Shown here: positions 19,977-49,480 of the stretch, in pieces | Layout of the letters: every line of letters starts with the position of its first letter | Numbering within the stretch: position 1 is the first letter of the stretch | From: Toxorhynchites rutilus septentrionalis | Lineage: Eukaryota > Arthropoda > Insecta > Diptera > Culicidae | Direction: 5' to 3' | NCBI RefSeq assembly: GCF_029784135.1 | Contig: NC_073746.1 | Span: forward strand, 183,649,983 to 183,713,982 | DNA length: 64,000 nt | Program-made: the position numbers and the translations under genes | Notes under the pieces: model-generated | The model's database searches: none | What the model was told of the DNA's origin: nothing | The model's input: the letters and a program-made list of their open reading frames with translations, nothing else

Positions 19977-20160
19977 GTGCTGATGTGTTACAAGATTTTT
20001 GTACCTAGTTGAGCTCCCACTCCTCGTGTACACATGTGCTCTGGCGAATGAGCACGCTCCGAAACACAGATGAAATGTTTTGTTGTCAGCATCGTTTTTG
20101 CGCTGAGTTCACGCTGAATTTTGCGCCGTATTTCTATACTAGAGGCGACCCTTCTGGCCT
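19977..20160 (+). repeat. interspersed repeat shared with 51455-51650
   Basis: Begins GGTGCTGATGTGT.ACAAG and contains 'TGGCGAATGAGCAC', 'GAAATGTTTTGTTGTCAGC' and 'GCGCCGTATTT.TATAC'. The same run is found at about 51455-51630 in the same orientation. Short open frames in both copies (with NTDEMFCCQ- or NTDQMFCCQ-type peptides) are by-products. Confidence 0.7.
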
Positions 20161-21790: not shown

Positions 21791-21813
21791 TTTATTATAT
21801 TTTCGTCTTTATT
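21791..21813 (-). terminator. candidate polyadenylation signals of the SAXO/MAP6-like gene
   Basis: On the minus strand AATAAA occurs at 21813-21808 and again at 21796-21791, about 150-170 bases after the stop codon at 21961-21963. This is the first such pair downstream and gives a short 3' untranslated region that stops just before the RTE-like remnant. Confidence 0.5.
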
Positions 21814-21960: not shown

Positions 21961-24900
21961 TTATCTTCTATCACGCACATAGTAGGTATGTTGCTTAGTA
22001 ACCTTGGATACCTTCAAGTTATCATTAATAGCATGCGCAGGACAGCGACCATCGTTCTGTTGCACATATTGCATCTTGTACGAGCTAGTGCCGTGGAATT
22101 TATTATCGTCACCAAAAGATATGCTGGACGCATTTGCTTTCGTTGAGCTTTTGGTCACGTTCAATGCTGCGTGATAATCACGCAACGATTTAGTCTGTTG
22201 CATGGTGGAATGTTGACCAATGGCGCTGCTACTCGTGCTGCTAGCGTTCGTTTGAGTTGTCATCGTTGGAGGCGGGCATGGTTGTAGTTTGGCACGTGTT
22301 GTAATACTTCCAGACTCGAGAGTTTTCACGTAGTTTTGCATTCTGGAATCAACCGATTCTTTCTCACGTCGGTGCAATGAGCTGTAACTAGTTCGATTAT
22401 TTGTCGAGTACATGTTATTGTCGTTCAAATTGGATATGCTCTTGCGTTGTATCGACCCGGAGATACTCAAACTGCTACCTGAAGGATGAACATTTGAATT
22501 CTGCTGGCGGCAAAGGATAGCGTTATTAACATTGTCGGAAGATGAAAATGCACTTTTCCGCGAAAACTGTTTAGTGCTAGCAGACTGTGAAATATTCTGC
22601 GACGACTCGTGGCTTGACTCTTGGTGGATCGATGAACTTACATTTGATGACGATTTCGCAGCTACTGACTCAGAATAGATAATATTATTCATTGAGTCTG
22701 CACGACTTGTTTTCATTGTGGAAACATTACTGTTTCCATCACTTACAGCCATTTGAACTAACTTTCCTCCAATAATTTTCGTTGTGGCGTTTTGTTTTGA
22801 TGAAATATTAGTGCTTTCACAGTTGTCATTTGAATGTTGAGAATGTTGAGAGTGTTGAGATGCCATAGAAGAATGCTTTTGAGTAGCAATCGCATTGTTG
22901 TGATGTTGTTCGGCACCATGCTTATCAGTTCCGTTCTCAGTGACCGTTCTCGTAACCCATTTGCCTCCAATTAGTTTTCTCACCTGCACTTGCTTCCCAA
23001 CATCTGAAGCGTGAGTTGTTTTATTGCTTGTATTTCCGCTATTTTCATATGAAGATGTGCTGACAATAGTTTTACTTTGACTATTCTGGGAACTGGTACG
23101 TCCGGAAACCGTTTGATCGTCGTGTTTCATTATCACATTTTTCATATCAGTACTTTTATGTAAGGTGGATAGTTCATCATGTCCAGTGACCCGTCTGTCG
23201 TCAAAAGATTTGTTATATTTCACTTGTCCATCTTCAATAAACTTATCATGACCCGATGCATGGCTTACAGTTTTGTCAGTAACAACTTTCCCATCTATGA
23301 CTATAGTATTACTAGCCGATGAAATGTTGGATCCCGAAGAGTGTTCCTGAGTTCTCACTGTTCCGACTTGTTCTGAAGAAATATTAGAACGATCGTAATC
23401 AAAACTATTATTCGATTGTTCTGTTGTCATAGAAGAGTGCTTCTGTTTAGCAACCGAATTTTTGTCATGCTGTTCGACAACACTCTTATCGGATCCAGTC
23501 TTTGTTACCGTTCTCGTGACCCATTTGCCTGCAACCAGTTTTCTCACTTGCACTTTTTCTCCGATATCCGAAGCATGAGTAGTTTTATGGCTTTCGTTTA
23601 CTTTGTTGTCATGAGACGAGGTGTGGATAATGTCGTTCATCTGACTTTTCTTGGAATTGATATCCGACACTGTCACTTTCCTCATTCCAGTGTTCTCCTG
23701 TAGATGTGCTATTTCGTCGTGACCAGTGACTCGTCTTTCATCAAATGCCGTATCAACCTGTACCCTGCCGTCTTTGATAACCTTTTCAACTCCAGACTTC
23801 TCAGTTACAACTTTGTCGGTAACGACTTTCCCATCGATAACCGTGATATTGCTGGCCAACGAAGCTTTGGATCCAGTGTAATGTGCGTGTGATGTTTTGC
23901 GAATATGTGGTGAAGAACCGTGGGGTAAGCCAGTTATATCATCACCCGAAGATGTTATGTGACCATTTGTTGTTTTTTCACTACTTGAAATAATCTGCCT
24001 AGATGACGTCTGACTTCTGGTGCTTTGCGATACATCCTTAATTGTTTGCGAATCTTCGGAAGACATTGTGTTCATTGCAAAGGATTTCCTCGTGCTACTT
24101 TGTGTACTTTCCCTCATATTTCGCTCAGCCTGAGATAAGGTTTTTTCGATGTTCGTCACGTCATGTATATGCTTCAGGTTATCGGGATGCTGCCTTGGAG
24201 AGGAGATTGTTTGGATATTCGAATCTCCCAAAATATTCGTAGCAGACTGAGAATGAACAGAAGATACCGATTTCTTCGAGGATGTTTGTTTAATCTCAGA
24301 ATGGGTATGGCGTTGTGTGTCATGTGCTGTATGGGAGAGTGCGTGTCCGGTATCTTTCTTAACGCTTGTATCGATGTATCTTTGATTGATTTGATTCTCC
24401 CTACTCTCATCGTGAGATATGTGCGAAGTGGACTCGTAATGCCGTTCATTCGTCTGAGATAGCATGGTGTTATCCTCTGTCTCCGATGTTATAACTTTTT
24501 TGCCCGTAGCTTTCGGTTTTTGACCCTTGACAATAGTCGTGACTTTCTGTGTAGTAACTAGCACAGCTCCATCAAGAATTTGATCAATTTCATGAACTTG
24601 TTTAAGTTCATCTTCTTTGCGTTGCTTAGTTTCCTTATATTCCGTCAATGAGTGATAGTCTCCTTCCATATGCAAATTATCTTTAGGTTTATATTGCTTT
24701 GGGCGCTCTGCTTGTCGGTACTGAGGTTTCTCCACAGGTCTCTCGAATTCACCTTCCGGTCGTAAGTTATCCCCATGCCGAATCGGCTTTGGCCTTTCTC
24801 CTGGTTGGTATTTTGGCTTATGAGGCATATCCATTGTTCCTTCTGATTTGAGATTATCCTCTGGTCGTGTTTGTTTTGGACGTTCAGCTGATTTGAATGG

Positions 24901-31967: not shown

Positions 31968-34900
31968 CTGCGAAAGAATTGGATGATCAAATACGTAACA
32001 GATTGCGCACAAATAATATGAATAAATGGTACCTTTCTGATAAAAGTTCTCAGTGTTGCTGACAGTAGCTGTTTTCGAAGATGTTTGAGTTGTTGCACCA
32101 CCACAGTTGAAGCAATTGTGACGACTGGAAAAAAGAGTCAAAATTTAATAAGAAATTTGTTATTGTCAACGTATTATTGTTAACGTCACACGCAATAATA
32201 TGTTAGGAAAATATTGAGAAACAAAACTATTCGCTTTTATGTTTCTCAATGTTCGTTTTGACGTGGAAAAGATGCAGAAGATCGTAAATGGGTTCAACAA
32301 TGAGTTTGGCAAATTAGACACAATTTGTGCTCCATATCAACATTGTGGCGTTACATTATGAGTGCTGGCAAGGCTAGATTTTCAGGATGGTTTTACAATC
32401 TATCAGAGCTGCAGCATCACAGCAGTTCCATCACTCACTTCAAATACCGGTCAAGGAAAAGATTGATTGATTTGATTGAGAAGTTCTTTGTGGCTTCCTT
32501 ACCAGACTTCACAAGTCTGTAATAGCTCTCACCGTGACGAGGGTGATGCAGAAACGGGTGATTAAATGGTAGTCACCGTTAAAGAAGAATTCTATGCGCA
32601 GATAGAGCGATAATACGATCGTTGCCTAAAACATGGCAAAAAAATCGTTATCAATGATTTAACACGTTGAGCCCCGTGTCGGTCTCTAGGGACCGACGTT
32701 GATCTTTTCGATGGAAAAACGTTGATCACTGGGACTGACAGTTGCAAAATAAGGAAATATAAAAAAAATGTTTTCGGATGTTTTACGACATGTGACTGCT
32801 TTCTGACTGCTGAATAGTCAAGTTTCTGACTATTTTATTTTCATACAGTAAATATCCTTAGGAGAGAGGACTGACACTGATATTGTGCAAATGCTCCAGA
32901 TACGGGATGAATGGGAAGTGCAGCAAGAAAAATTCGAGGTTGAACGTGTTAAACACTCAGGTTGGCCAAGGGGATTAGCTCAGACAGGTAAAGGACATTT
33001 TCAGGATAGTGCTCCAGAAATGTCTGGACGATGGTCGCTTTCCTAAACAATAGAAAATACAGAAGTTAGTGTAGCTGCCGAAACTAGGAAAAACCTCGGG
33101 AGTATCAACATCATATATGCCTGCTGGATATGCTCGGAAAAATCTTGGAAAGGATTATCCTTGACCGGCTGACAAAATGTACGGAGAGTAATAATGGTCT
33201 GTCAAAAATGCAGTTTGGTTTCCGGAAAGGCAGGCCCACTGTTTGTGTTATCCGCACGGTTATCGGAAAAGCTGAGAAGTCGTCGAAACAAAAGCGGAGA
33301 GTGACCGACACTGCGCAGTGGCCACGATCGACGTGAGAAATGTGTTCAATAGCGCTAACTGGGGCGCTACTGCCGAGTTCCTGTATCGTATGAAGGTTCC
33401 TGGGTACCTGTGCAGAATTCTAGGAAGCTATTAACATAACCACGTTCTAGTCTACGAGAAGGGCAGAGGGCAGATACTGATGAAGATAACGGAAGGAGTA
33501 CAACAAGTCTCTATCCTGGTTTCAACGCTGTCGAATCTTATGTACAACGGAGTGCTGACATTGAAGCTTTCCAAAGACGTGGAGATCGTGGGCTTCGCGG
33601 ACGATATCGCACTCACATTGACAGGCGAGACACTGGAAGAGGTGATGATGTACAGTACATTGCCACAGTAGGAAACTGAATGCAAGCGTATGTTAAAGTA
33701 CTTGGGAGTTATGATCGACGACCGACTGAGTTTCAATAACCACGTCGACTACGCCTGCGAAAAAGCTAGGATAATGCCGAACATCGCTGGACCCTGCAGT
33801 AGTAAAAGGCGTCTTATAGCTACTGTATACTTGTCAATACTGTGGTACGGAGCGCCAGCCTGGTCTGCGATTCTTGAAAACGGAATCGCAGGAAACTGAA
33901 CCGTACGTGTCGGCTCATGGTGATGAGAGTTGCGAGTGCATATAGGACGATTTCTTTGGAAGCAGTGTGCGTTATCGTCGGCATGATCCCGATTGACATA
34001 AGCCTGGCGGAAGACGGTGAGTGTTATATACGTGAAAAAACCAACGATGTCCAGAAACAGCAAGAGCAGAATCACTATTGAAGTGGAAGTATGAATGGGA
34101 CACGCATGGGCTCATACCGATAATATCGACTTGGCTGAACGGGAAGCACGGAGAGGTGAATTTTAGTCTGACACAGTTCCTGTCTGGATATGGTTGCTTC
34201 AGGCAATATTTACACCGGTTCGGGTACGCAAGGTCGCCACTCTGTCCGGAGTGTGAAGATGCGGAAAAAACCGGAGCACGTCGTATTCATATGTCTCAGA
34301 TTCACCGCAAGGCCCGAGTGCACATCACACATCATGTCCGAATTACAGCGAAAGTGGAGGACCGACCAGCGTGCCTGATTGATTAAGGAGAACATCTGCA
34401 ATGATTGCTCTAACGGATGGTACCCCACGAGAGTAGCTGCATTCCGGCATTCCGCTGGTAAGAGAAATCCTGCGAGGGTGACTGAAACGGGGCGCGCGTT
34501 ACGTTGGAGGGCGTTTCCTAATCGGTTCACGTCTCGACACGTGAGAAACCCCGCGAGGGTGGCTGTGACGGGTTGCGCGTCAAGTTGGAGGGCAACTCCT
34601 AATCGGTACACGTCTCGTCGGGTAAAGTAACAGTGGCGAACCAGCCAAAAGAGTTGAAAGTCACTATAAAAGAGAAAAACAAAAATACTGGCGAAATGGA
34701 ATGCAAGCGGAGTTTCGAATACCAAAAGGCGTGCAGGCAGTGCCTGATCGTGGACTGGAAGGATGAACACTGCGAGGATCGTTTCTAAGGAGCGAGCGTC
34801 AAGGAAGGAGTCGTCTAGCCGGTGCATACCCTACGAGAGTAGCCGTGCGGAGTGCGCGTTTTGTTTAAGGGCACTACTTATTAGACGTTCTGTTGGGAAG

Positions 34901-37900
34901 AAGAAATCCCGCGAGGGTGGCCGTGACGGGTTGCGCGACATGTTGGAGGACAATCCCTAATCAGTACACGTACACGTACGACGGGTGAACGGTTGATGAC
35001 ATAATTGGAATTGCACGAAAGAAAAGGTGTAAGATAATAACAACAGGTGAAATGCATGAGCACAGCCGTTTCCCGAAGTAGTCGCCTAGATGTGGTCCCA
35101 GGGGGAATGGGGCTACGAATAGAGAGCTTGGTTTTAGTGGGTGAGAGTCACACTCGACGTCTGGATTAACCCTTCCATGGTTTTTGAACCCCACTGACAG
35201 CTGTAATGGTGGCATCATTCAAGCACACAGGAAGAGATAGGCGATAGTAGGCTCTGATTCTCATTCGAATAGTACATTTTCATTCTTCATTGCACTTTGC
35301 ATAGGCGCCACCAAGACGGGTCTATGGTACTAGGTGAGGCCGTTTCGTCACTAAATTGGTTAGGGGAGCGGTATACCAAAACAGTACGGAAGAAAGCAGA
35401 AGGGGAATTATTTGCTTGAAGCGTGAAAGAGACAGACTGATCACGAGCGAGCTCCGGCACAAGCGTATTGTGTTTTGTTTACAAACAAAACACAGTAGAC
35501 TTCCAAGATGGCTGAAGAGTGGTTTTAGCAAGTTGGCCCACCCTAGGATATACTTCTACGCGCCTTGGGCGCCACAACTGAAAATCGAATCAGGTTTTTT
35601 TCTACCGTATTGGAGAACTGAAATTTGTAAGTAGAGTGAAATTGTTTATGGAAATTTTCTGATAATAAAAACAATTATTGCAGTTTGAGGTGTACAACAG
35701 GAAGCTGCGCATATAGTTTTCTGACAATTATCCGAACACCGATGGTATTCAATGGGCCTTATTTCCGTATACACTTCACGCTGAAAACGAAATTAACGGT
35801 ATCTTATTGAAGTTCGTTTTACAAGTTGGATTTTCAGGCAGAATGAACACTTTCCAAATAGAAATAATGAATGAAAATAAACCCCTCTTTATCAAATTGT
35901 TGGTCAATGTAAATGAAAAACTTTGTTTTGTTCATGTGGTAAAATAGTCACTGTAAAAAATCATATTTGTAGATAATGTTTAACTATAATGATAAGTTTT
36001 AGTGGGAATATCGCAAAGTTTACAGAAAATAGGTTAAGTTAAGGTAAGAAAAACGCACAAAAAAAAATAAATGACGCCTAGTAAAATTTTTCATTTCAAT
36101 TTTAGCAATTTAAAATTGCCTTCGGGCCGGCTTATCTGATAGAGAGTGGAATGCCTTGTTAAAAATTAATTTCTTACGCAGATATCGACACTGTACCGTT
36201 GTCATCGCGGATACACTTCATTTTGCTTTCATCGTGAAGTGTATACAGGAATAGGGCCCAATGTTACCGGTTGCACTGTGGGCAGGATTGCCAACTATAA
36301 TTTTCAAAAATCAGGAAGAATAGAAATAAAAATCTGGAAGAAATCAGAATAGCTCACATCGGTTTGTCCGCAAAGTTCGCGTCGATTTTTGGGAAAACAA
36401 AAGTATTATTTTTAGCTTTCACGCGGCTTAAAAAATCTTTTGTGCCTACTTTCTTGTCGAAAACAATTCGAGATATTTTTTTATTTGGCCTTTTAATTTG
36501 TCAAGTTGCGAGCAATACTTGTGGGAATTTTCGACCGATTGTTTGATAGTAGCTCATAATACAGAATTTCTTCCCGATCCCATTAGACACAGAGTATGGC
36601 TTTCTTCGGGTGAAGACCGGTTTTAGGTTAAGCTAATGGTGGTAGATTTCACTCACCCCATGTTTTTGCCGCTCAACATTGTTGTAAATTAACCGTTTTC
36701 ATCACCAATCACCAATAACAATTTCGCGAATTTCAATTGAACTTAAAACATTACAGTAGAAAATGTTCAGAATTTTTCCATCTTCCTTCAAAATATTCCA
36801 ATCTTTTTGCCTTAGCAGCTACGGGCAGAGACGAACACAAGAAAATGAAACAACTTAAATCGGGCAAACCGTTGTCGAGTTTTGAACATATTTGGTGTAT
36901 CATTTTCATTTGTATAGATATAGAAGTGCATTATTCCACCTGAAAAACTATTGTCATTACATTGCATCTCTGTTCACGAGTTTTGCACTAAACAACACAT
37001 TTGCCATGTTATTTTTATGTACGAGGCTATCCGATAAGTTTTTAACCTCATCGCCCGATAGTGTCAGTATCGCAAAAGAGATTACTATCGTGTAGTACTC
37101 GGAAACGGCTACTGTCAAAATTTCAGCCGAATCGGACTCGTAGTTTTGTTTTGACAGTGTGCGGAAGCAGGCGTGTTCGCGGGTTTTAGAAAAATGGAAA
37201 AAGAACAATATCGGTCGGTGATTCGATTCTTGTTTTTGGAAGGGAAATCGCCTAGCGGAATCAAAGAGCGCTTGGATGTTTTTTTTTTTCCAAAATATAT
37301 ATTTTTATCAAGGCTCATATGGCGTTAGCCTCACGGGGCCGGGAGTTCAATACTTTGACAATTTTTCTTATTATCTATGTTAGTAATATGTAACCGATTA
37401 CTCGCGGTTGGCTCGAGGTTAGTATTACAAGTGTTTTCGTAATTCGGATGTTGCTGTCTCCAATGCTCTGTACGTGTGCCCGACTCGGGATACTTCCTAT
37501 TGGGATGCAGCTGACCCTTGATCAGCAACGTCCCCCTAGTCTGTACCTCATATCTAGCGTGGTGCGTCTTTCTCGACTCGAGGAATCCAGGATAGAATGG
37601 TCACTAACCGGCGCAATCATCAGTTCATGTAGAGTTGTCATGAGCGGTACAACCTTTGGCTCTTGTTGAATCATCAGTGGACTGCACAACCTTTGGCCCG
37701 TGTATCTGTAAAGAGTGTGTGTATGTATTGCCGCGACTAAGTAAAAGTTTATCGATCGGATAGGAGGGATATAAAACGGGGACACAACGAAGGAAACATC
37801 ATTAAACGTTGACATCGGCGTTCCTGAGGAACAGGTATAGATGAAGCAGAAGATCAGGATCACGGCTACCTAAGATATCCCGGACGGGGATCTCCGATTG

Positions 37901-40900
37901 TCTGCCTTGTGCTCTCAGTGCTCTAGAGAGCTGAGAGCGAGCAGCATGGAACCGGATACACGACCAGACAACATGCTCGATGTCGTGATAGCCATCGCCA
38001 CAATCACAAAGATTGTTTGCTGCGAGCCCAATGCGATAGAGATGCGCGTTTAGGTTGTAGTGATTGGACATAAGCCGAGATATCACGCGAATGAAATCAC
38101 GACCTACATTCAATCCCTTGAACCATGCACTCGTCGAGACCTTAGGGATAATCGTGTGTAACCAACGACCGAACTCATCTCCACTCCACATGCCCTGCCA
38201 ACTTACGAGCGTGTACTGACGAGGAATGTGGAAAAATTCATTATAAGCAATTTGCCTTTCAAAAAGTGTGCCTTCTAAAGCGCCCACCTTAGCTAGCGAG
38301 TCCGCTTTCTCATTCCCCGGAATCGAGCAATGAGAGGGAACCCATGCTAAGGTAATCTTGAATAATTTTTCGACCAAAACACTCAATAATTGTCTTATTC
38401 TTGTTAGGAAATAAGATGAGCGTTTATCAACTTTCATTGAGCGGATTGCCTCTATTGAGCTGAGACTGTCTGAAAAAATAAAATAGTGGTCGATGGGCAA
38501 TGTTTCAATGATCCCCAGTGCGTAGTATATCGCACCCAGTTCAGCGACATACACGGAACAAGGATCTTTGAGTTTGAAAGAGGCACTGGAATTTTCATTG
38601 AAGATGCCGAAGCCAGTGGACCCGTTTATGTATGAACCGTCAGTAAAGAACATTTTATCAGATCTAACTTTCCCATATTCTGCCGAAAATATCGGCGGAA
38701 TATAATCGGAGCGTAGATGATCTGGGATTCCATGGATTTTTTGTCGCATGGACAGATCAAAAATGACAGAGGAATTGCAAAAGTATGGGAAGCAAACTTG
38801 GTTGGAGATGCCTGGTGAAGGGTGCACGTCGTGGGTAAGGTACTCATGGTATAAAGACATAAAACTTGACTGAGGAATCAGTTGGAGTAGATTTTCGAAG
38901 TTATCAATCACCAATGGATTCATGATCTTGCAACGGATGAGAAATCTGTAGGATAATTCTGTGAACCGAAGAGTAAGCGGGGGTACTCCTGCCAAAACTT
39001 CGAGACTCATCGTATGTGTCGAATGCAAACACCCCATGGCTATACGCAGGCAACGATATTGTATTCTCTCCAGCTTGAGAATATGAATCCTGGCAGCTGA
39101 TCGGAAGCAAAAACTGCCATATTCTAACACTGATAATATCGTTGTTTTGTATAACTGAATGAGGTCTCCTGGATGGGCACCCCACCATGTTCCGGTTATT
39201 GTTTGGAGAAAATTGATTCTTTGCTGGCATTTCTGTTTCAAATACGCAATGTGTATTCCCCAGGTACATTTAGAGTCAAAATATACCCCAAGGTATTTGA
39301 AAAACATCGAGTGCTTGATCGTTTTGCCGGATAGGTGAAGCTGGAATTGGGCGGGTTCGTGCTTCCTAGAAAAAACGACCATTTCAGTTTTCTCCGTAGA
39401 GAATTCGATACCCAGCTTGAGGGCCCACGTGAACAGATTGTTCAGGGTATCTTGCAACGACTTTTGCAGAACGACGGGATTAGTACCCGTGATGGAAATA
39501 ACTCCATCGTCTGCAAGTTGTCTCAGCGTGCAGTCTCTAGTTTGACAATCATCTATATCATTGACGTAAAAACTGTACAAGAGGGGGCTTAGGCAGGAGC
39601 CTTGTGGTAGGCCCATAAAACTGTATCGAGAAGATTTCAAGCTGCCATGATTGAAAAACATGTGCTTTTCTGACAGTAAATTGTACAGGAAATTATTCAG
39701 AATTGGTGAAAGTCCACGATTATGAAGTTTCTCTGAGAGAATTTCCATGAAAACTGAATCAAATGCCCCTTTGATATCGAGGAAAACGGAAGCCATTTGT
39801 TCTTTGCGAGCAAATGCGATTTGGATTTCAGAAGATAGCAGCGCCAGACAATCGTTCGTCCCTTTACCTCGGCGGAAGCCAAACTACGTATTTGACAGCA
39901 AATTGTTCGCTTCAACCCACTTGTCCAAACGAAGTAGAATCATTTTCTCTAACAATTTACGAATACAGGATAACATTGCAATCGGCCTATACGAGTTGTT
40001 ATCGCAAGCCGGCTTGTTGGGTTTTCGTATGGCTATCACTCTCACTTGCCTCCAGTCATGTGGGACAATATTCAGCTCCAGAAACTTGTTGAACAAGTTC
40101 AGCAAACGCTGTTTTGCCAAGTCGGGAAGATTCTTCAACAAGTTGAATTTAATCTTGTCCATCCCAGGAGCTGAATTGTTACATGAGAGGAGGGCAATTG
40201 AGAATTCTACCATCGAAAAATTCTCATAGTCGCATTGGAGCGGAATGTCGCGTACGACGCTTTGTGCAGGAACGGAATCGGGACAAACCTTTCTTGCAAA
40301 TTTGAAAATCCAACGGTCAGAGTATTCCTCACTTTCATTTGTATGGTTCCAGCCACGCATTCTCCTAGCCGTATTCCAAAGAGTGCTCATAGCGGTCTCC
40401 CTTGACAAACCATTGACGAACTTTCGCCAATATCCACACTTTTTTGCTTTAATCAGACCTTTTAGTTTGGCTTCTAGAGCTTGGTACTTTCGAAACCATT
40501 CCACTAGTCCAGTTTTCCGGAATTTTTTGAAAGCGGATGATTTTTCAAGGTAGACCTTTGAACACTCCTTGTCTCACCAAAGTGATGGAGGACGACGTCG
40601 GAAAGTGGTAGCAGGAACACGTTTCTTTTGAGCTTGAAGTGCGCTTTCGTAAATCAAACTCGATATAAAGTTATACTCTTCGAGTGGAGGAAGTTCATGC
40701 ATTGAAACAAGTGCTTCAGATATTATTTCTGCAAATTTTCTCCAGTCAATATTTTTCGTGAGGTCATACGCAATATCGACTGACTCACGAGAACCTGATT
40801 CATTGGCGATCGATAAAATTATTGGCAGGTGGTCACTACCGTGGGGATCTTGGATTACCTTCCACGTGCAATCCAGGGATAACGAAGAAGAGCAAAGTGA

Positions 40901-43900
40901 TATGTCTAGCATACATGCCCGTGCAGGGGGGTTGGCTATTCTAGTTGCTTCCCCAGTATTCAAAACTGTCAATTTGAAGTTGTCGCACAGATCATAAATC
41001 AAAGTGGCACGGTTGTCATCGTAGAGTGAACCCCATGCTGTTCCATGGGAGTTGAGGTCACCTAAGATTAGCCGCGGCTCCGGCAGTGCCTCGATGATAT
41101 CAAAAAACTGATGGCGGCCAACCATAGTTCTTGGAGGAATATATATCGAGGCAATGCAGAGGTCTTTGCCATTGATTTGTGTCTGGCAAGCGACAACTTC
41201 AATGCCTGTCATCGATGGGAGAGTGACTCTATAGAAGGAGTGACATTTTTTGATCCCCAATAGTACGCCACCAAACGAGTCATTTCGATCGAGGCGAATA
41301 ATGTTGAAATCGTGGAAATTCAGTTCGTCGGCTGAAGAAAGCCATGTTTCACAGAGGGAAAATACATCACAGTTAGAACTATGAATTACAAATTTAAATT
41401 GATCTAGTTTAGGGATGATGCTTCTGCAATTCCACTGTATTACAGTGGTCAAATCCTTGACCTCTTGCACTGAATCAGGCATCGAGGGAAATGAACGCTG
41501 CTAAAAAACCACATTTTTCTTTCAAAAATGTTCTCACAATCGGGAGCAAACATAATACTATGCTTTTAAGAGGGTCATTTATATTTAAAGCATTTAAAAT
41601 ATTGTCCACCAGGTCAGAAAGCGCAAGCAAGCCAGATTGTGGCTGTTGCCTCGACCGCGAAAAAGGAACAGACGTGTTGGGCTCTGCTCCGGGAAGTGCT
41701 GAGGACCCCTGGTGCGTAGAAGAACCGCTTAAACCAGGAGGTACTTGCTTCGGTCTATTCTCAGCACGTTCGATACGAGGTTTCATTCCAATTTGGGAAG
41801 TTTCGGTCTTCTTTCTGGGGAGTGATGGAAAAGAAGTAATTTTTCTTTTCCTAATGGCACCCTGCGATGTACCGGAACTTCCTGCATTGGGAGCGTCAGC
41901 AACAGGCTCGTCGTTCTGCAGAATGGAGTAGGGATTGTCCTGAGTCGTTGAAGCGGAACTCTTAAGCATTTCTGCATAAGTCCGCTTGGAACGTTCCTTT
42001 AAGGAACGCTTGAGTTTTTCCCCTCGTTGTATGTACACCGGGCATTGAGAAAGATCATGTGGAGCCTCGTCGCAATGAAGACACTTGCGCTCTTTTGCGC
42101 AAGAAGTCCCATCATGACTCTCTCCACAATCTGCGCAACGTTGTTTATTGCAACAATAGGCGGCCGTGTGACCGAGTTGCATGCATTTGTTGCATTTCAT
42201 TACCCGGGGTACAAACAACCGAACAGGTAAACGAAGTGCACCTATTGCAACGTAGTTTGGAAGAGCGGAACCCTCAAATGTCACACGAAAAGAGTTTGTC
42301 CGATTGAGAACTCGTTTGTCATTTTTAAGTGACACAGACTTCAGTCGATCGCATTCAAGAATCTTCACACTTTTAAGTGAGGAGTTCTTGAAGCGACCGA
42401 CACCATCGAGTATCTCTTTTCGAGTCAAACCATTTTCGTTTATTACACCGTCTATTTCAACGTTACAACAGGGTACGTATACGCGATACTCAATCGCAAA
42501 GAGATCACAGCGCGTTATTGCATTCGCTTGGGTCCTGCAAGAGACGACAACTCGTAATTTGTCTGGCCCCATCCGAGTAATTTCAGTAACTTTGGAAAAT
42601 TTCTGCGTTAGTTCTTTTGAGATGCGAATGACATTAAGAGGTTTTGATTTTCGTCTAAAGTATACAATGAATGGACCTTTGAATCCCTCCGGGTATTCCT
42701 TTAGACGAAAATCATGTTTTTCATCAATTTCCTCATCTTCAGAACTTTCTACTTCATACACAGAATTTTCCTCCTCAACGTCTGCTTCATCCTCCTGCTC
42801 TTCAGGAGGTGGGTCAGCATCAGAAACATTCAATGACGTGGAGGGGGGATCCTCCCCGCCCTCAGCCAAAATAATAAATTAGTCACCTGTTCGATGTGAA
42901 CAGTATAGAATAATAATAAAAAAATAGAAAAAAATAAATGAGTAAATAAATTATATTTGTATTCAAGATATATATAAATTATATTTATTTCAATTTTTTA
43001 TTGTATAAATTCAAAAATGAAAAAAAGTTTCAACAAAAGTTCAACGGTAATGTAAGAAAATTGTACACCCCTAATGCCAACGCTTGCCGATTTGGTAAAT
43101 ACAATGTTGGACAATGGTGTAAATCGTACACAGGAGGTTGAAGGAATGATAAATGGAACAATAGAAAAATAAACTTCTACTTGCCGCTGCTGTGTAGCGT
43201 GTGATGAATGTGTGTTGATCTGAACTGGATCCTCAGCGTCTCGATCGTGCACCACTTTTAATTGAGCTCGCTTCACTCGCAAGCGCTGATGAAAAAAGCA
43301 CAATATAAATCTGCGTGAAAAAAAACACCGTTATCGGATCGATTCTCAAGCTTATCCGATCAGCTCGCGAGTTCTCGAACGAGTGTGGAGCTTGGATGTT
43401 GTATACGGTGACTCTTCTCCTTTGATGGCGACCGTCAAAAATTGGTTTAACGAGTTTCAACGAGGTCTCATGTCGATTTCTGATGAGCCACGCCCAGGCG
43501 CCCCGAAAACGGCTACCACTGAGGATAACGTGACAAAAATCCACAATCTCGTATTGGCAGACCGCCGATTGACCCTACAAAAGACCGCGTGGGTCATTTC
43601 TTGCATGAAATTTTGGGCATGAGAAAGCTGTCGGCGTTTGCTCACTCCAGACAACAAGCGCAACCGTGATACCACTCCAGAGCAGTGTTTGACGCTGTTT
43701 AAGTGCAATCCGAAGGAGTTTCTACGTCGTTTCGTGACCGTCGACGATACATGGATCCACTGGTATACACCAGAGACCAAGGATTTCGACTGTTCCTTGG
43801 TCTCTGGTGTACAGTGAATTTCACCCGGCGAACGTGCTCCGAAGAAGGCGAAGACTGTCCTATCGGCGGCTAAGGTGATGGCCACCGGTTTCTGGGATTC

Positions 43901-46900
43901 ACAAGGTGTGATCTACATCGACTACCTGGAGAAGGGCAAAACGGTCATAAGGCTCTACTATGCCGAATTATTGGGCCGATTCGACGCCGAATTGCCGAAA
44001 AAACGGCCCCATTTGGCGAAGAAAAAAGTGCTTTTCCACCATGACAACGTCACACCTCCGCCGTCGTCACGGCCAAATTGGTCGAATTGCACTACGAACT
44101 GCTGCCCCATCCACCGTATTCTCTAGATTTGGCACCGCGCGGCTTTTTTTTTTGTTTCCAAACTTGAAAAAGTCACTCGCCGGGCAACAGTTTGAGTCGA
44201 ATGAGGAGGTCATCGCCGCCACGGAGGTCTAATTTGCAGACCTCGAGAAAACGTATTTTTCAGATGGATTAAAGAAGTTGGAGCATCACTGGGTCAAGTG
44301 TATCGAGCTAAAAGGAGACTATGTTGAGAAATAAATCGCCAATCTACCAAAAAAAATTTTTTTGTAGGCTAAGTACATATCGATCTGCCTTCGTATATTG
44401 ATATAATATTTTCCGAAGAATTTTATTGAGTGAATGATACCAAGAATATAACCATACAATTAAACATTCTTAGATGTACTAGTTTTGTTCTCTAGAACGA
44501 AAATTTCTTGGATGACGAAGCGAATTTGCAAAGGAAATTATGATTTTTGGAAGTCTTATCATTTTGTCAAATCAAAAGCAACTCCAGCAATATTCTCCCT
44601 AACAACGCCAATAAAGGAGGAGGCGATCTGGCGTAGTGGTAACATCCAGGCCTCTCACGCTAAAGGTCACGAGTTCAATTCTCACTCCCGACATTCTTCC
44701 AAAAATGGAAGTTAAAGTGACGAACCAGCCGAATGAGTTCAAAGTCACTAATAATACAGATATAAAAAAAACGCCAATAAATCGTCGAAAGGTAACTATC
44801 CGGTTCTTTGTTTAAAAAAAAGCCACGGATTTCCAAATAAATCGCGTAGTACAACAGTACACTTATTCTGTTAAAAAATTAGAATTGCGATCTGTCAAAA
44901 ATACTAAACTTCTCGATAGAAGGTCAGAGAGAAACGAATCGTGTGTTATTATGCTCAGGGAATTTTGTATAATATTCACCGACTGAATCACAAAAACTTT
45001 TCAATTGTTTTACATGAATACGAAAACACTGAGCATAATTTTGAATCTAAATTTCAATCAGATGTCCATTCGAATAAATGTGTTGAAAATAATGACATTG
45101 GAATAAATATTTTTCATTCTATACTTTATTCTCAAAATACGGTACAGATTGATAATAAGACGGGACAATTAAAATAGGCCCTAAAAACGGTACTGTTCTG
45201 TTAAAAACGGTACGTTTGGTCAGCCTAAATATAACAGAATATGTATCTTCTTTATTATGCTCTACATAATTCTTAGTGGCTAGTATTCCGTTCATTGTTT
45301 CCATTTGTAGTGTATTTCTAATCTTTGTTTTATTAACACTTTGACGTCCGCACGATTCGTAAAAAAATATGCGCTTGGCGTCGGCAGCGCTAACTCGGAT
45401 TACTTGGCTTGTCGCCGCCCGTTCTTGACATTATCGGGAAATTAAAAATTGAAATTGAAATAGAAATAGATCTAGATCTAGATCTAGAAATAGAAATCTA
45501 ATCTTATCGTTAGTTTTCATAAGTTCTCAACCCTATTCCCCTAATTTCATGAAATTTCGAAGATATACATACGTAAATATTACAAACATGTCCGTATTCC
45601 CCCCACTATATGTCAATACGGATAATCATCGAATAAATGTTCTACTTTTCGGTCTGTTTTAATTTTGTTAAAAACATTGAGAAACCTTTGACCGATTATT
45701 TCGAAAAAAAGTACATTGAAATGCAAGAAACTGCATTTAAGTTTGGTAAAACACGAGTTTCGAAAGATATAATAAAAGTTCTTCTTAATATGTCCGTTTT
45801 TCCCCACCTTCCCCACTTATAAAAACATTAAAATTGATATATGTTATTGTTACGTAAACCAAACCCCAACTGAATGCAAATGATACTCAAGTGCTATCGC
45901 CGGCCACTGAGATACTATGCGCACGTAACCACTGTGGTGTCGCCGGACGCCAAAGTGTTAAGATTGAATTGAGAGAAAAGTCGTTCTACCGATGCTGAGG
46001 AATATTCAAGAATTTATAAGCATGGTATAAACTCTCGCAGAAATGAAAAAAAAACTGTGTTTTGTCAAATCCTTTGATAGGTTATATTTTCCCCAAAAAC
46101 CTACAGCATCACTATAGTCAATTGTAGAGTATGTAGAGAAATTCAGTATTCAGAATTTCTCTAATTTCATCGTCCATACTTGGCAATTAATCTTTATTCA
46201 ACAAATAGGGAGGCATATCAGAAGTGGATGAATTGTTGAATGTTTCCTATTTTTGATGTTATTTGATTCGATTTCTCCTCCTCCTCAGGCAACCCAATAT
46301 TATGATAGTGCAGTTATGATCAGGAAAATTTTTGCAGAGGTCCCAGTACATTTATCACGGATAATTTTCATTCTGATAAACAAAAAAGTACAAAAATCAG
46401 GAGAAATCAGGATCATTTTTGAAAAATCAGGCAAAATGGATCAGGAAGGTTGGTATCTCTGGCTGTGGGTGGAATTTGAAAACACAAGAAAACATTCTCC
46501 TCCACATGGGAAAATGCCGGCACGAGCATGATTTCCAGAGGCTTGGTTTGGTACTAACGACATGTTTGACTGCCAAAAAGCCTGGGAAATCCTGAAAAAT
46601 CAGGAAGGTTGGTATCTCTGACTGTGGGTGGAATTTGAAAACACAAGAAAACAAGAAAACATTGGCCACATGGCCAAATGCCGGCACGAACGCGATTTCC
46701 AGAGGCTTGGTTTGGTACTAACGATATGTTTGAAGTGTTGAGTTGTCTATAGTGACGAAAATGAGAGTGTTTTTTCGAGAAATAAAACGATATAAATTTT
46801 ATTTTTCTATAAAATAAAAAAATAATTGACCAAAGTATCTCCAGAGACAACCAAAACTGCTTCAATTCAAGCGAGATTAATTCGAAGTAGAATGGTAATT

Positions 46901-49480
46901 TTTTTGAATTGCAAAACTAGAAATACATACAACATACACACAGCATACATATTTAACCCGACAGGCGAATAAAACAAACCCGAATGATGACGATATATGA
47001 GACCGGTGATGTCATTCTGCCATATAAAGAAAGAAGTGTAAAACGAATGCAAATCAACATCACGTCGTAAGAAGGCGGCCTCAATTGACCATCTACGGCA
47101 AGTATATTCCAGTAGATAGCAGGTTTTTTTTTGCGTGGTATATAGAAACTCGGTAAAAATTTTCGTCCGAGACTGTAGTTTGCGTGGTCGGTAAAGTATA
47201 CAGTGTTCCATTGGCGCTGAAAAATAAATACTCACCCACAGGTACAGATCTCACAGATGCATTGTTCTTTCACAATTTTGTCCGTTTGCTTCTTAATCTT
47301 GCTGAGTCTTCGGTTCTCTTCACTAAGGTCACTTATTTCTTGGACAACAACTTTATCCTGAAATGAAAAGTAGCAATATATAGAATGACCCAAGTGGTTG
47401 GCAGTGGTTGCGGCATACTCACCACTGTGTCAATACTTTGCAAGTTTCGCACCCTCTCCGATTCATTCAGTTCGGTTCGTCCACTACTTTCCTCAAGGTA
47501 GCTGATTTTTTCAAGCACATCTGTGTACTTTTTTTGATCTACAGTTTTCCATTGTTTAGTATTCGCATCATAAACCTGACCAATGGATAAAACTTGTTGA
47601 AAAGATCGTTTTCACGAAAGAATGAGCCTTCTGGGACTTACCTTTGTCAGTTGAATTGTGGTTGTAATATTTGCAAGCTCAGGACGTTCTACTTCTAACT
47701 CGTGCACTATTTCTTCTGGAATAGTGACAGTGATATCCTTCTCCAGAACAGTTTTCTGGTCTACCAATTCCCACCGTTTTAGTTTTGGATTATACAGTTT
47801 TGCTTCGAAAGATGTTTTCGTGACATTCGTTACGTCATCCTCAATATCCTGAATAATCGCATCTCTGGAAACAACTTTCTCATCCACGAGATTGAGTCGT
47901 TTCACTTTTTCATCATACGTTTTACGTTTAAAAATTGCAGCATTCGATTCACGCTGCTCGTGATAGTCAGTGACTTGTTTCCGTGATCTGGATTTTTCAT
48001 CCATTTGCTCATAGTGCGATGATTTTTCATAATTTTTCGTTGATTCAGAGTGTTGCGTTCTTGATGATACATCTTGACTCGATTCGGTCATTAATTGAGT
48101 GCTCTGAATAGTATTCGATTGGGAATCATGGGCGGATGAAATGCTGGCGATAGTATGCGCTGAGGCGCTCTTCGGAAGCATATTTGATTGAGTCACATTG
48201 TCTTGAATCTTATAATTTTCCAGTGTCATTGAATCGATTATGGAATCGTTCGCTTCAACGCTGTGAATGTTCGAAACGTTGACAACGTTTGACGAAGTTT
48301 TCTGCTGCTTTGAGGACGAAACATGAACCGAAGAACTAGTTGCCAAGGAATGATTCGAGTCTTGAATGTTACTACTTTGAACGATTGTTTCTCCCGATTT
48401 GGAAGACGATTTGTTGCTGACGATTTTGTTTCCCAATGTGTCATAAATAATCTCCGTTGTGGGAGCGATTTTTTCAGCAAAAGAATAACTTTGTCTATCA
48501 GAGAAAGTCTTAGTGTTTCCGGTATCATCCACATGAAGAGATCCACCGTGAATAACGGAATAATTTCCAATGTCCTGAAACTGACTACCCACTTTCAGGC
48601 CATAATCCTTACTATCCGTTTTTGATGTCATAGATTTATGGAATGAATTATCTAGCGTATCACTTATATTGGAGATGTTCACAATGTTTGACGAACTTTT
48701 TTGTTCAACTGAAGATGACGTGATGGCCGACGAATTTATAACGGAATGGCTCGAGTCTTGGATGTTTCGGCTTTGTATGATATTTCCTCCTGACTTGGAA
48801 CTTACTGTTGTGCTGGTGATTTTATTCCCTGCCGAGTCGTACATGATCTGTGTGGTCGGAGCTGTTTTCTCAGAAAACGAATAACTTTGACTATCCGAGA
48901 AATGTTTCGCACCACCAGAAGAACCCGCAACGTGATATTCGCTACTCTGAAGGAAGGAATCATTTCCGGTGTCTTTAAGCTGCTTCTCAAATTCAAGAAC
49001 TGAATCTTTCAGATCCATATCAGACTTTATGGATTGCACGTCGAAATCTTTTTTGTGGAATGTACTGGTATTGAGGGCGGTTCCCATTGAAGATGATAAG
49101 TTTACGGTTTTTGATTCGGCAACATGTACCGACTTTTGAGACTGCGAAGAACTTGATTCACTTATAAACTTCTCACTACTCATAACCTGAGATTTTGACG
49201 ATTGCTTTTCATTTATGGCACTGCTAATTGTGGTTGAATTTGCACTACTATTTCGCACTGTCTTGGAATTCGACATTTTACTGGACGAACTTGAAGATGC
49301 AGTCTGCATTCTGCTGCTACCACTTATATTCACTGGGGGATTGTGCTGCTCTGTGATCACATTTGACACGTCAGTAGCAGCATGTTCCATGCTGCTAACA
49401 GCAGAATGAAACGATCTTTCTGCATCAATTAAATTCTGGCTTTTCAGCTTATCCTGTTTGTCTCGTTTGTTCAAGCCCAT
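21961..49480 (-). CDS. giant SAXO/MAP6-like repeat protein, five coding exons, about 4,070 aa
   Basis: Five minus-strand exons join in frame: 49480-47642, 47575-47423, 47357-47236, 32124-32033 and 31967-21961 (12,213 nt, 4,070 codons plus TAA). Donors are GTAAGT, GTGAGT, GTGAGT and GTACCA, and all acceptors end in AG. Introns are 66, 65, 15,111 and 65 bp. The protein has a Ser-rich N-terminal part, three 'Y-D/N-x-x-x-K-x-W-x-x-V-D-x-K' repeats (residues about 522-630), a cysteine motif C-I-C-E-I-C-T-C-G-R-H-N-C-F-N-C (697-712), about 82 modules of 29 residues (about 808-3172), and a Ser/Thr/His-rich tail with a duplicated ~180-residue unit. CxCxxCxCGRHxC upstream of repeated modules is the hallmark of SAXO proteins, relatives of MAP6, which bind and stabilise axonemal or cytoplasmic microtubules through such modules. 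Cytoskeletal function is therefore inferred from architecture. The start was chosen at 49480 (CCAAGATGG context); the reading frame upstream has no ATG. Confidence 0.8.
22730..23870 (-). repeat. internal duplication in the C-terminal region (~180 aa, two copies)
   Basis: Copy 1 starts near 23862 and copy 2 near 23321. Each has, in order, V-I-D-G-K-V-V-T-D-K, a hinge, D-(E/D)-R-R-V-T-G-H-D-E, H-A-S-D-(I/V)-G-x-x-V-Q-V-R-K-L, G-K-W-V-T-R-T-V-T and Q-K-H-S-S-M. The conserved islands inside otherwise low-complexity sequence look like short folded or binding motifs. The 'GKWVTRTVT' and 'RKL' pieces recall the 'KRWELVDQK' repeats of exon 1. Confidence 0.8.
24650..31755 (-). repeat. coding tandem array: 29-aa modules in 58-aa (174-bp) pairs
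   Basis: Modules alternate between an A type (R-P-E-D-N-L-R-P-E-G-T-F-E-T-P-D-K-P-K-Y) and a B type (R-P-D-D-N-L-R-S-E-G-E-F-D-R-P-E-K-T-P-F), each joined by a P-A-E-R-P-K-Q-I linker. This gives a 174-bp DNA period. The first ~16 and last ~12 modules are diverse, some with H-E-D-N-L or V-E-R-S-Q-I variants. The central block (about 26.2-29.8 kb) is nearly uniform, with longer repeats at multiples of 174 bp (for example 26304 and 26826, 522 bp apart). No unit breaks the reading frame. Confidence 0.95.
32033..32124 (-). CDS. exon 4 of the SAXO/MAP6-like gene (second half of Cys motif)
   Basis: 92 bases with acceptor TTTTTTCCAG|T and donor AAAG|GTACCA. It completes the split Gly and continues R-H-N-C-F-N-C-G-G, so the joined motif is CxCxxCxCGRHxCxxC. 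The remainder is a Thr/Ser-rich linker ending N-T-E-N-F-Y-Q-K. The phase fits exon 3 directly across the 15.1-kb intron, so no missing exon is required. Confidence 0.8.
32560..32660 (+). pseudogene. short RTE-like endonuclease fragment
   Basis: Contains 'GAAGAATTCTA.GCGCAG' and K-I-V-I-N-D-L-type sequence that match the endonuclease units at 58857 onward. It is cut off by the MITE at 32663. The preceding 32125-32559 holds nothing I recognise. Confidence 0.45.
32663..32948. mobile_element. TTAA-flanked MITE (piggyBac-like), 286 bp
   Basis: Flanked by TTAA at 32659-32662 and 32949-32952. The left end CACGTTGAGCCCCG and the inverted right end CACGTTCAACCTCG share 11 of 14 bases. TTAA duplication is the signature of the piggyBac superfamily. 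No transposase is present. Confidence 0.6.
32953..34400 (+). pseudogene. R1-clade non-LTR retrotransposon RT remnant
   Basis: Reading across several frames: G-K-I-L-E-R-I-I-L-D-R-L (33127 on), Q-F-G-F-R-K-G-R-P-T, T-I-D-V-R-N-V-F-N-S-A-N-W, K-I-T-E-G-V-Q-Q-V-S-I-L, then the catalytic F-A-D-D-I-A-L-T (33595-33618), Y-L-G-V-M-I-D-D-R-L-S-F, and a C-terminal zinc-type region F-L-S-G-Y-G-C-F-R-Q-Y...C-P-E-C near 34175-34260. These are R1 hallmarks. The usual G-V-P-Q-G-S box is degraded to G-V-Q-Q-V-S, and frameshifts and stops are frequent. The first endonuclease ORF is missing. Confidence 0.75.
34401..35180 (+). repeat. R1-type 3' tail with ~81-bp tandem repeats
   Basis: Three clear copies of a unit beginning AAATCCCGCGAGGGTGGC and containing 'GTTGGAGGGCAA' and 'CCTAATCGGTACACGT' start at 34462, 34543 and 34901. 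A decayed copy lies near 34825. Between them, 34624-34680 matches the 3' part of the SINE at 44616-44770 (CGAACCAGCC..AAAGTCACTA) without its tRNA-like head. The segment ends with 'CACTCGACGTCTGGATTAACCC'. Confidence 0.6.
35181..35737. other. intronic sequence without recognised features
   Basis: No conserved reading frame or repeat with a second copy in the window. A near-palindrome TTGTTTACAAACAA at about 35476-35489 is the only local symmetry. Confidence 0.5.
35738..36271. mobile_element. foldback MITE with long inverted repeats, about 530 bp
   Basis: The left arm has 'GGGCCTTATTTCCGTATAC' plus 'ACTTCACG' and the right arm has 'CGTGAAGTGTATACAGGAAT' plus 'AGGGCCC', exact or near inverses extending about 50 bases inward. 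The middle is AT-rich and non-coding. No target duplication is obvious. Confidence 0.6.
36272..37019. other. intronic sequence without recognised features
   Basis: AT-rich. A short run of 'AAAAATCAGGA' pieces near 36305-36350 resembles the 46390-46610 repeat region. Nothing else is supported. Confidence 0.5.
37194..37280 (+). pseudogene. mariner transposase, N-terminal part
   Basis: ATG at 37194 gives M-E-K-E-Q-Y-R-S-V-I-R-F-L-F-L-E-G-K-S, the usual helix-turn-helix start of mariner transposases, reaching ...K-E-R-L-D-V where the I-type element's poly(A) tail, seen here as a T-run, interrupts it. The C-terminal part resumes at 43390. Confidence 0.75.
37802..41482 (-). pseudogene. I-type ORF2: endonuclease, RT, RNase H; two nonsense codons
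   Basis: One frame of 1,226 codons with only two stops, TGA at 40574-40576 (in place of Trp after P-P-S-L-W) and TAG at 39884-39886 (in place of a residue before F-G-F-R-R-G-K-G-T). Order of domains: AP-type endonuclease from the start (Q-W-N-C-R-S-I-I-P-K, L-G-D-L-N-S-H-G, G-S-D-H-L-P-I), RT (L-D-I-K-G-A-F-D-S-V, G-L-P-Q-G-S-C-L-S-P, catalytic L-A-D-D-G-V), RNase H (F-T-D-G-S, A-E-L-G-A-I, F-S-D-S-L-S-S, W-V-P-S-H-C-S-I-P-G-N-E-K-A-D), then a CxCx7Hx4C finger (C-D-C-G-D-G-Y-H-D-I-E-H-V-V-W-S-C). The start codon overlaps the ORF1 stop (ATGCCTGA), suggesting coupled translation. Confidence 0.85.
41475..42869 (-). CDS. I-type ORF1 nucleocapsid-like protein, intact, 464 aa
   Basis: Unbroken from ATG at 42869 to TGA at 41475-41477. 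The N-terminus is very acidic (E-E-Q-E-D-E-A-D-V-E-E-E). The central part has the R-V-Y-V-P-C-C-N-V-E-I-D-G-V motif. Three zinc knuckles follow: C-N-K-C-M-Q-L-G-H-T-A-A-Y-C, C-A-D-C-G-E-S-H-D-G-T-S-C and C-L-H-C-D-E-A-P-H-D-L-S-Q-C. A basic K-R-S-L-K-E-R-S-K-R-T stretch comes next. Such proteins bind the element's RNA. The homologous ORF at 52861 is frameshifted. Confidence 0.85.
   Translation of the reverse strand: MAEGGEDPPSTSLNVSDADPPPEEQEDEADVEEENSVYEVESSEDEEIDEKHDFRLKEYPEGFKGPFIVYFRRKSKPLNVIRISKELTQKFSKVTEITRMGPDKLRVVVSCRTQANAITRCDLFAIEYRVYVPCCNVEIDGVINENGLTRKEILDGVGRFKNSSLKSVKILECDRLKSVSLKNDKRVLNRTNSFRVTFEGSALPNYVAIGALRLPVRLFVPRVMKCNKCMQLGHTAAYCCNKQRCADCGESHDGTSCAKERKCLHCDEAPHDLSQCPVYIQRGEKLKRSLKERSKRTYAEMLKSSASTTQDNPYSILQNDEPVADAPNAGSSGTSQGAIRKRKITSFPSLPRKKTETSQIGMKPRIERAENRPKQVPPGLSGSSTHQGSSALPGAEPNTSVPFSRSRQQPQSGLLALSDLVDNILNALNINDPLKSIVLCLLPIVRTFLKEKCGFLAAFISLDA
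43390..44334 (+). pseudogene. mariner transposase, main part (degenerate)
   Basis: Starts with V-V-Y-G-D-S-S-P...V-K-N-W-F-N-E-F, then D-E-P-R-P-G-A-P-K-T-A-T-T-E-D-N-V. After frame changes come T-V-D-D-T-W-I-H-W-Y-T-P-E (first catalytic Asp), L-F-H-H-D-N (second), Y-S-L-D-L-A-P-R-G-F-F (where the third catalytic Asp of D,D34D, normally in A-P-x-D, reads Gly), and the C-terminus L-K-G-D-Y-V-E-K before TAA at 44332-44334. It is inactive because of frameshifts, a palindromic insertion at 43766-43811 and the lost Asp. Confidence 0.75.
43766..43811. repeat. perfect 18-bp-arm hairpin inside mariner transposase
   Basis: Arm TACACCAGAGACCAAGGA (43766-43783) and its exact inverse (43794-43811) are separated by 10 bases. 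The insertion falls directly after W-I-H-W-Y-T-P-E-T-K, breaking the frame; S-P-G-E-R-A-P-K-K resumes behind it. It looks like a templated inverted copy made during repair. Confidence 0.8.
44616..44770 (+). mobile_element. tRNA-derived SINE with 11-bp target duplication
   Basis: Target duplication ACGCCAATAAA at 44605-44615 and 44771-44781. The head has pol III box A (TGGCGTAGTGGTAA) and box B (GGTCACGAGTTCAATTCTC); the tail has 'GTGACGAACCAGCC' and 'AAAGTCACTA' and ends A-rich. The same family is inverted at 50970-51117. Aedes carries tRNA-SINE families such as Gecko, but I cannot assign this one by name. Confidence 0.85.
44782..45336. other. intronic sequence without recognised features
   Basis: AT-rich, with a 78-codon open frame on the plus strand (44941-45177) that has no recognisable motif and lies antisense in the intron. 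I do not call it a gene. Confidence 0.5.
45337..45957. mobile_element. TTAA-flanked MITE (piggyBac-like), 621 bp
   Basis: TTAA at 45333-45336 and 45958-45961. The left end CACTTTGACGTCCG and the inverted right end CACTTTGGCGTCCG differ at one base. A short TAGATC microsatellite (about 45467-45487) lies within. No transposase frame. Ends differ from the 32663 MITE, so this is a second family. Confidence 0.7.
45962..46434. other. intronic sequence without recognised features
   Basis: AT-rich, no frame or repeat of note until the 46440 duplication. Confidence 0.5.
46435..46745. repeat. ~160-bp tandem duplication
   Basis: 'ATCAGGAAGGTTGGTATCTCTG.CTGTGGGTGG' occurs at about 46441 and 46602. Each is followed by 'CACAAGAAAACA', 'AAATGCCGGCACGA' and 'CAGAGGCTTGGTTTGGTACT'. 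The second copy has a doubled 'AACAAGAAAAC'. Confidence 0.75.
46746..47235. other. intronic sequence next to the exon 3 donor, no recognised features
   Basis: AT-rich; open frames are short and lack motifs. The donor GTGAGT of exon 3 begins at 47235 on the minus strand. Confidence 0.5.
47236..47357 (-). CDS. exon 3 of the SAXO/MAP6-like gene (first half of Cys motif)
   Basis: 122 bases, phase 0 in and phase 2 out. After a charged, probably coiled-coil stretch (D-L-S-E-E-N-R-R-L-S-K-I-K-K-Q) it ends C-I-C-E-I-C-T-C-G, with the Gly codon split by the donor TGTGG|GTGAGT. The four cysteines (697, 699, 702, 704) are the N-terminal half of the SAXO-type cysteine motif. Confidence 0.8.
47423..47575 (-). 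CDS. exon 2 of the SAXO/MAP6-like gene
   Basis: 153 bases, phase 0 at both ends, with acceptor TTGGTCAG| and donor GTG|GTGAGT. It encodes residues 614-664, starting V-Y-D-A-N-T-K-Q-W-K-T-V-D-Q-K. This is a third copy of the repeat that ends exon 1, and that continuity is the main reason to join the two. The rest (L-E-K-I-S-Y-L-E-E-S-S...E-R-V-R-N-L-Q-S) looks helical. Confidence 0.8.
47642..49480 (-). CDS. exon 1 of the SAXO/MAP6-like gene
   Basis: Encodes residues 1-613 and ends exactly after a Lys codon at AAG|GTAAGT. The bulk is Ser/Thr/Gln-rich and likely disordered. It contains an internal duplication about 131 residues apart, marked by F-S-D-(S/R)-Q-S-Y-S-F-(S/A)-E-K-(T/I)-A-P-T-T near 48880 and 48490. 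The last 90 residues turn acidic and ordered, with two 'K-x-Y-(D/N)-x-K-x-K-R...V-D-(E/Q)-K-x-V' repeats at residues about 522 and 563. Only one long frame is open on this strand over 1.8 kb, which supports coding. Confidence 0.85.

Follow-up and report, generated by a model that had tools for sequence, protein, structure and literature searches.

In SAXO proteins, as characterized in PMC3280300, an N-terminal cysteine motif is combined with a proline-rich chain of Mn-like modules, in which T/S and F/Y are six positions apart, the last Mn motif carries a Cys-Pro, and the published pI and proline content lie between 8.25 and 9.05 and between 11.6 and 20%, respectively. For hSAXO1, 12 modules are described (PMC8131560), and for TbSAXO six. 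In Toxoplasma SPM1, a microtubule-lumen protein of 351 residues with six 32-residue repeats that are true Mn motifs, each repeat is reported to follow the 8-nm spacing of the tubulin dimer along one protofilament, with T/S and F/Y marking the two ends of a short helix, which sits at the intradimer interface, and with all 32 residues needed for filling the 8-nm spacing (PMC8144581). MAP6 and MAP6d1 also contain the Mn motif, and the MAP6s stabilize microtubules; they are described as restricted to vertebrates and as devoid of the SAXO motif 1. Lastly, titin is a huge protein with Pro/Glu/Lys-rich repeats of about 28–29 residues, whose hallmarks are Ig/Fn3 domains and PEVK/PPAK repeats.

The window, that is, the whole stretch of 64,000 nucleotides analysed here, comes from the 902-Mb genome of the mosquito Toxorhynchites rutilus septentrionalis. 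From it, we re-assembled a minus-strand gene that runs from an ATG at 49480 to a stop codon ending at 21961, and whose five exons (1839, 153, 122, 92 and 10007 nt), separated by GT-AG introns, yield a single frame of 4,070 residues plus stop with a predicted mass of 469 kDa. The original prediction of a five-exon, in-frame gene of about 4,070 residues is thereby borne out exactly, and the observation of a giant five-exon predicted gene with an array of 82 modules is confirmed at the sequence level. Its features are the following:

47642..49480, minus strand: exon 1, with the start codon, a Ser/Thr-rich N-terminus and the first hairpin-type repeats; aligns with Anopheles bellator P0018
47423..47575, minus strand: exon 2, with a TKxYDxxTKxWKxVD repeat; its junction region is conserved in P0018 and P0004
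47236..47357, minus strand: exon 3, which terminates within the cysteine motif
47236..47261, minus strand: opening half of the SAXO cysteine motif (CICEICTC plus part of the G codon); coordinates derived from the exon table
32125..47235, minus strand: intron 3, 15.1 kb, containing a decayed non-LTR retrotransposon
32033..32124, minus strand: exon 4, which finishes the cysteine motif (RHNCFNC at 32103-32124)
21961..31967, minus strand: exon 5, with the module array, followed by a Ser/Thr-rich C-terminus and the stop codon
24592..31752, minus strand: module array, 82 modules with 29 residues each (DNLRPEG.F..P.K..Y.PAERPKQIRPE); coordinates from residues 808-3194
22036..22086, minus strand: C-terminal Mn-type motif with Cys-Pro, SSYKMQYVQQNDGRCPA; 19 of the 20 homologues have a similar motif
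21791..21813, minus strand: polyadenylation signals, two AATAAA, 147 and 164 nt past the stop

The predicted protein is composed of a Ser/Thr-rich N-terminus, about three copies (counted by eye) of a TK.YD..TK.W..VD repeat, the cysteine motif, the 82 modules, a Ser/Thr-rich C-terminus and the motif SSYKMQYVQQNDGRCPA, in this order. It thus resembles SAXO1 and TbSAXO in its cysteine motif, its proline-rich module chain and its last, Cys-Pro-bearing Mn motif, but differs from them in its size (82 modules in 4,070 residues, against the 12 and six modules described), in the internal position of its cysteine motif (residue 697) and in its modules, only 36 of which retain both Mn residues. Its overall pI of 8.36 falls inside the published SAXO range; its proline content of 11.1% lies slightly under the published range for proline, while that of the array is 18.1%. 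The N-terminal repeat can also be written as TK.YD..TxTW+.VDE and is found at 47642-47878 and 47423-47575 (minus strand), with more copies in the gall midge protein P0004 (residues ~555–850); structure prediction renders these WxxVD repeats as hairpin-like paired strands at a pLDDT of 50, too weak for use.

We compared the gene with 20 records of homologues, isoforms among them, which are 1,713–4,437 residues long; 19 belong to 15 named species of insects: one bee, seven ants, one fig wasp, one gall midge, one fungus gnat, one Anopheles, one butterfly, one phylloxera and one firefly. The insect giants (Dufourea, Ceratosolen, Kallima, ants, Daktulosphaira, Contarinia, Anopheles bellator and others) share a CICE[IL]C motif, DNLxPEG modules and a C-terminal Mn-CP in the same order; their modules span about 29–33 residues, whereas the period in our gene is a nearly perfect 29. 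At both protein ends, the closest of the 20 is Anopheles, another mosquito. A homologue search with C-terminal words retrieved nothing in 2609 scored candidates, which leaves room for giant arrays in other mosquitoes. With one regex, the homologues contain 6–62 modules and our gene 82; with a looser one, the numbers are 6–66 and 83. The bee and the seven ant records reach 35–62 modules by one regex, so that the array described here is the longest among the 21 sequences, though of the same order as those of bee and ants. The ‘extreme’ expansion of the original prediction therefore stands in relation to described SAXOs such as hSAXO1; within the insects, our gene represents the top of a range. 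Nine modules were counted in P0018, which may be an undercount: this protein is interrupted within the cysteine motif (CICEICTCGRPKY) and runs directly into the modules, and its gene model probably misses a small exon equal to our exon 4.

Eight of the homologues are named titin, eight are uncharacterized and one, from the butterfly Kallima, is named ‘SAXO downstream of blistered’. This is the only descriptive name, and it ties the family to blistered, the fly SRF gene, a regulator of wing and trachea; presumably, it derives from the fly gene Sdb. Our literature search returned no paper on ‘SAXO downstream of blistered’, on SAXO together with blistered in Drosophila or on Sdb, no insect SAXO paper by title among the matches listed for SAXO with insect or Drosophila, and no occurrence of the term SAXO in the available text of the wing papers searched. 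The giant family is not new and exists in databases under poor names, but seems to be hardly studied.

The kinship with SAXO proteins is supported by sequence comparisons at both ends of the array. The cysteine motif, CICEICTCGRHNCFNC, which straddles the exon 3/4 junction, starts at residue 697 rather than at the N-terminus, and at residues 511–1643 in the homologues that possess it (19 of 20). The strict cysteine regex published for SAXOs (Dacheux 2012, PMC3280300) fails on it, while a version that we relaxed matches CICEICTCGRHNC. Depending on the piece submitted, the region scores 27.8, 28.7 or 31.4 bits against the Pfam family PF05217 (SAXO1-2), above the curated cut-off of 26.5. Two of five pieces with an intact motif from other sources also pass this cut-off and the remaining three match below it; the P0018 piece, with its incomplete motif, has no SAXO match in Pfam. 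In the PDB, our cysteine piece finds SAXO1 at an E-value of 0.11 only; the corresponding piece of homologue P0003 finds SAXO1 at 3.2e-4, and its next matches are two chains of the STOP family (0.23 and 0.34). Only pieces revealed this kinship: Pfam and PDB scans with whole exons found no SAXO, and neither did Pfam scans with four whole homologues. Likewise, an NCBIfam scan yielded nothing relevant, and a PF05217 search found no match in the host genome, nor in the control genomes, which makes this negative uninformative. In other insects, TTT..E[FY] stretches occur near the motif; none were seen in our gene.

At the C-terminus, the Mn-type motif followed by Cys-Pro, which has a counterpart in 19 of 20 homologues and was absent from the original prediction, also favours SAXO kinship. 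A profile built from 11 out of 19 C-termini (nearly identical ant sequences and isoforms omitted, one cut short) obtained nine PDB matches at E ≤ 10, the best two of which are SPM1 (1.6e-7 and 2.1e-7). Each of these scores adds up six weak stretches spaced like the repeats, the last one carrying the CP; the best single stretch, the final Mn-CP, reaches 13.8 bits with an i-Evalue of 0.36, and none is significant alone. The other seven matches (E 0.21–3.6) comprise FAP363, a flagellar-associated protein and DMIP27, by name all from microtubule structures, and four unrelated proteins. Single C-termini found no Mn protein in the PDB, but chance matches (virus E1 and structural-polyprotein chains) or nothing. 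The likeness to SPM1 thus extends from tandem repeats of about 30 residues to this best match of the insect C-terminal profile, final Mn-CP included, and, judged by sequence, would allow a concrete hypothesis, in structural terms, on the binding site of at least one end of the protein. Membership in the MAP6/MAP6d1 group, by contrast, was rejected, as our gene has the SAXO-type motif 1 that is missing from MAP6s.

Between these ends, the array is highly regular. A strict regex counts 81 modules; if it is relaxed slightly, the count is 82. The 81 spacings between these 82 comprise 80 of 29 residues and one of 30, and the regex used for the spacings also yields one stray match outside the array (83 in total). 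In the DNA, the tandem period is 87 bp, but 174 bp, or two modules, fits better: modules two apart are on average 82% identical and adjacent ones 64%. Over all 3,321 module pairs, pS is 0.694 and pN 0.178; for the 420 pairs of core modules that share their parity, the values are 0.363 and 0.014, a pN/pS ratio of 0.04. Core modules that differ at 36% of silent but only 1.4% of replacement sites indicate that the array is real and selected, as recent or artefactual amplification would leave no such pattern; by this sequence measure, the modules are under strong purifying selection. The whole array resides in one exon, and all 18 scored module matches in the host genome fall into this gene, with no second copy among the best candidates.

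Whether the modules are Mn modules is less straightforward. The consensus in most insects compared is DNLxPEGxF...K..[FYW].P.ER...., in which DNL..EG is predetermined by the regex used in the search; F9, P19 and R22 of the 29-residue modules are retained in most modules across all seven insect groups compared. The two Mn residues, T/S11 and F/Y17, occur together in 36 of our 82 modules, mostly in every second one; F/Y17 is present in 79, in 43 of them without T/S11. An array-only piece has no SAXO match in Pfam, and the PDB contains no match to a module profile at E ≤ 10, even though the alignment behind this profile (28 of 39 picked modules, the 11 omitted ones mostly being without an aromatic residue at the expected place) would have favoured an Mn match. 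When compared with SAXO1 and STOP-family fragments, a module HMM built from 352 distinct modules of 12 of the 21 sequences lands in register on their Mn motifs, with low scores of 8.0, 8.3 and 14.0 bits that were attained by 6, 0 and 0 of 2000 shuffles. The spacing T/S-x5-F/Y exceeds the shuffle maximum in just one of 20 homologues (on our gene, this test is inflated because the modules are copies of one another), whereas an aromatic residue 8–13 positions past EG beats every shuffle in 19 of 20. In an AlphaFold prediction of five modules, there is no global fold (pTM 0.12, mean pLDDT 71), but one four-residue helix per module, every 29 residues, located at PxDN rather than at the T..Y stretch. 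Of the predicted 82 SAXO/MAP6 modules, what holds is a weak, in-register similarity to Mn motifs, while the Pfam and PDB searches provide no SAXO match for them; the SAXO kinship stands at both ends, and the prediction of 82 SAXO modules is borne out in part. On balance, descent of the modules from Mn modules is likely, with contacts that have since changed.

Given these results, our preferred reading, to which we assign a probability of roughly 60%, is that the gene encodes a giant insect member of the SAXO/Mn family, a microtubule liner or stabilizer with a derived module, whose binding site, ruler role and tissue we infer. The chain would extend along one microtubule protofilament, with about one 8-nm tubulin dimer contacted per module in the manner of the 32-residue SPM1 repeats; by our estimate, 29 residues in a mostly extended conformation would be just able to bridge this distance, and full engagement would cover about 670 nm (82 x 8.2). 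The classical C-terminal Mn motif would probably anchor the chain in the lumen or the lattice, and the modules would represent a derived insect version whose contact with tubulin has moved away from that of the original Mn helix. Gripping one dimer after another through many weak contacts, such a protein might give rise to long-lived, force-bearing microtubule bundles that resist depolymerization; these would be expected in cells of epithelia, tendons, wings or tracheae more than in cilia.

Alternatively, the array could mainly act as an elastic, disordered polyampholyte spring or spacer of the PEVK kind, of which the ends alone touch microtubules, such that the name titin would be right in function, though not in ancestry. 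Its composition (18.1% Pro, 14% Glu, Lys/Arg-rich, pI 8.2), the missing global fold in the AlphaFold prediction, the titin label on eight of 20 homologue records and the module profile without a PDB relative are all compatible with such a spring. The conservation of F9, P19 and R22 and the pN/pS of 0.04 in the core, however, are more residue-specific than a spring requires, and Pfam detects no titin-type domain or other family in exons 1 and 5, although HMMER filters may hide some. We therefore consider it unlikely that the array is mainly a spring. As for titin itself, the likeness is that of a huge protein with Pro/Glu/Lys-rich repeats of similar length; membership was rejected, since exons 1 and 5, which were scanned whole (exons 2–4 in pieces only), contain no Pfam family at E ≤ 10, with the proviso that HMMER filters can drop repetitive proteins. 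The evidence suggests that this set of insect genes named titin should be grouped with the microtubule inner proteins instead of muscle titin, and that the label misleads users of these gene names.

A more far-reaching version of our preferred reading would be that insects evolved a length-coded liner, a ruler or clamp outside cilia in which a re-invented tubulin-binding module determines, by its number, the stretch of protofilament covered (~0.67 µm). Lineages might then differ in how module number changes, some expanding the array and others removing entire modules by splicing. For the latter, phylloxera (Daktulosphaira vitifoliae) is of interest, with five records (P0006 and P0012–P0015) that are predicted isoforms. 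Compared with the longest, three of them exhibit one clean gap each, of 377, 261 and 290 residues, or 13, 9 and 10 x 29, and the fourth has net 203 residues fewer (7 x 29), with a replaced stretch. If these predicted isoforms are real, phylloxera varies its module number by splicing, unlike the one-exon array of our gene. We regard this length-coded scenario as rather improbable; still, a strict 29-residue period at such length constitutes a natural test of whether a protein's length can measure that of a microtubule.

It is equally doubtful that the protein is an axonemal SAXO of the conventional type that became larger to serve long sperm flagella or chordotonal cilia. Both of its ends are SAXO-like, and SAXO1 and TbSAXO are described as ciliary or flagellar proteins (PMC3280300, PMC8131560); against this, modules that keep both Mn residues are the minority in the array (36 of 82), and the sole descriptively named homologue points toward blistered. 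The role in sperm flagella or sensory cilia that the original prediction had considered thus finds no backing, as none of our results points to cilia.

On the level of the gene model, P0018 aligns with residues 1–706 at 42% identity (E 2e-155) and with the C-terminus at 32% (E 6e-112), and gall midge P0004 aligns with residues 12–758 at 23% (E 4e-46). These E-values are flattering, since low-complexity and composition corrections were off and Ser-rich parts are included; the clear part of the alignments is a three-way block surrounding the junctions between exons 1 and 2 and between exons 2 and 3, and the part encoded by exons 1–3 is common most clearly to Anopheles and the midges. For the exon 4/5 junction region, the alignment with homologues reveals no clear conservation. 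The cysteine motif, which intron 3 splits here, is unbroken in 19 of 20 homologues, and to complete it in our gene, exons 3 and 4 must be joined. A division into two genes (exons 1–3 and 4–5), for which the 15.1-kb intron with its retrotransposon and the exon 4/5 junction might speak, or an array that is an assembly artefact is highly improbable, as the intact motif and the array are consecutive in the same chain in those homologues, the core modules diverge widely at silent sites and the 18 scored module matches, the best candidates in the host genome, all fall into this gene.

Mobile and repetitive elements were noted within and around the gene. The remains of the non-LTR retrotransposon in intron 3 (37802-42878, minus strand) comprise endonuclease, reverse transcriptase and RNase H in separate frames, and a second such element, with endonuclease-reverse transcriptase and RNase H frames, is located upstream of the gene on the opposite strand (54592-58104, plus strand). 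Downstream of the gene, we noted a reverse transcriptase-like fragment, recognized by eye (19637-20008, plus strand), a retroelement gag-like fragment with a weak PNMA match below the cut-off (15670-16155, plus strand) and, at 753-14577, many satellite-like tandem repeats with periods of 5 (ATCGC), 38, 95 and about 150–470 bp.
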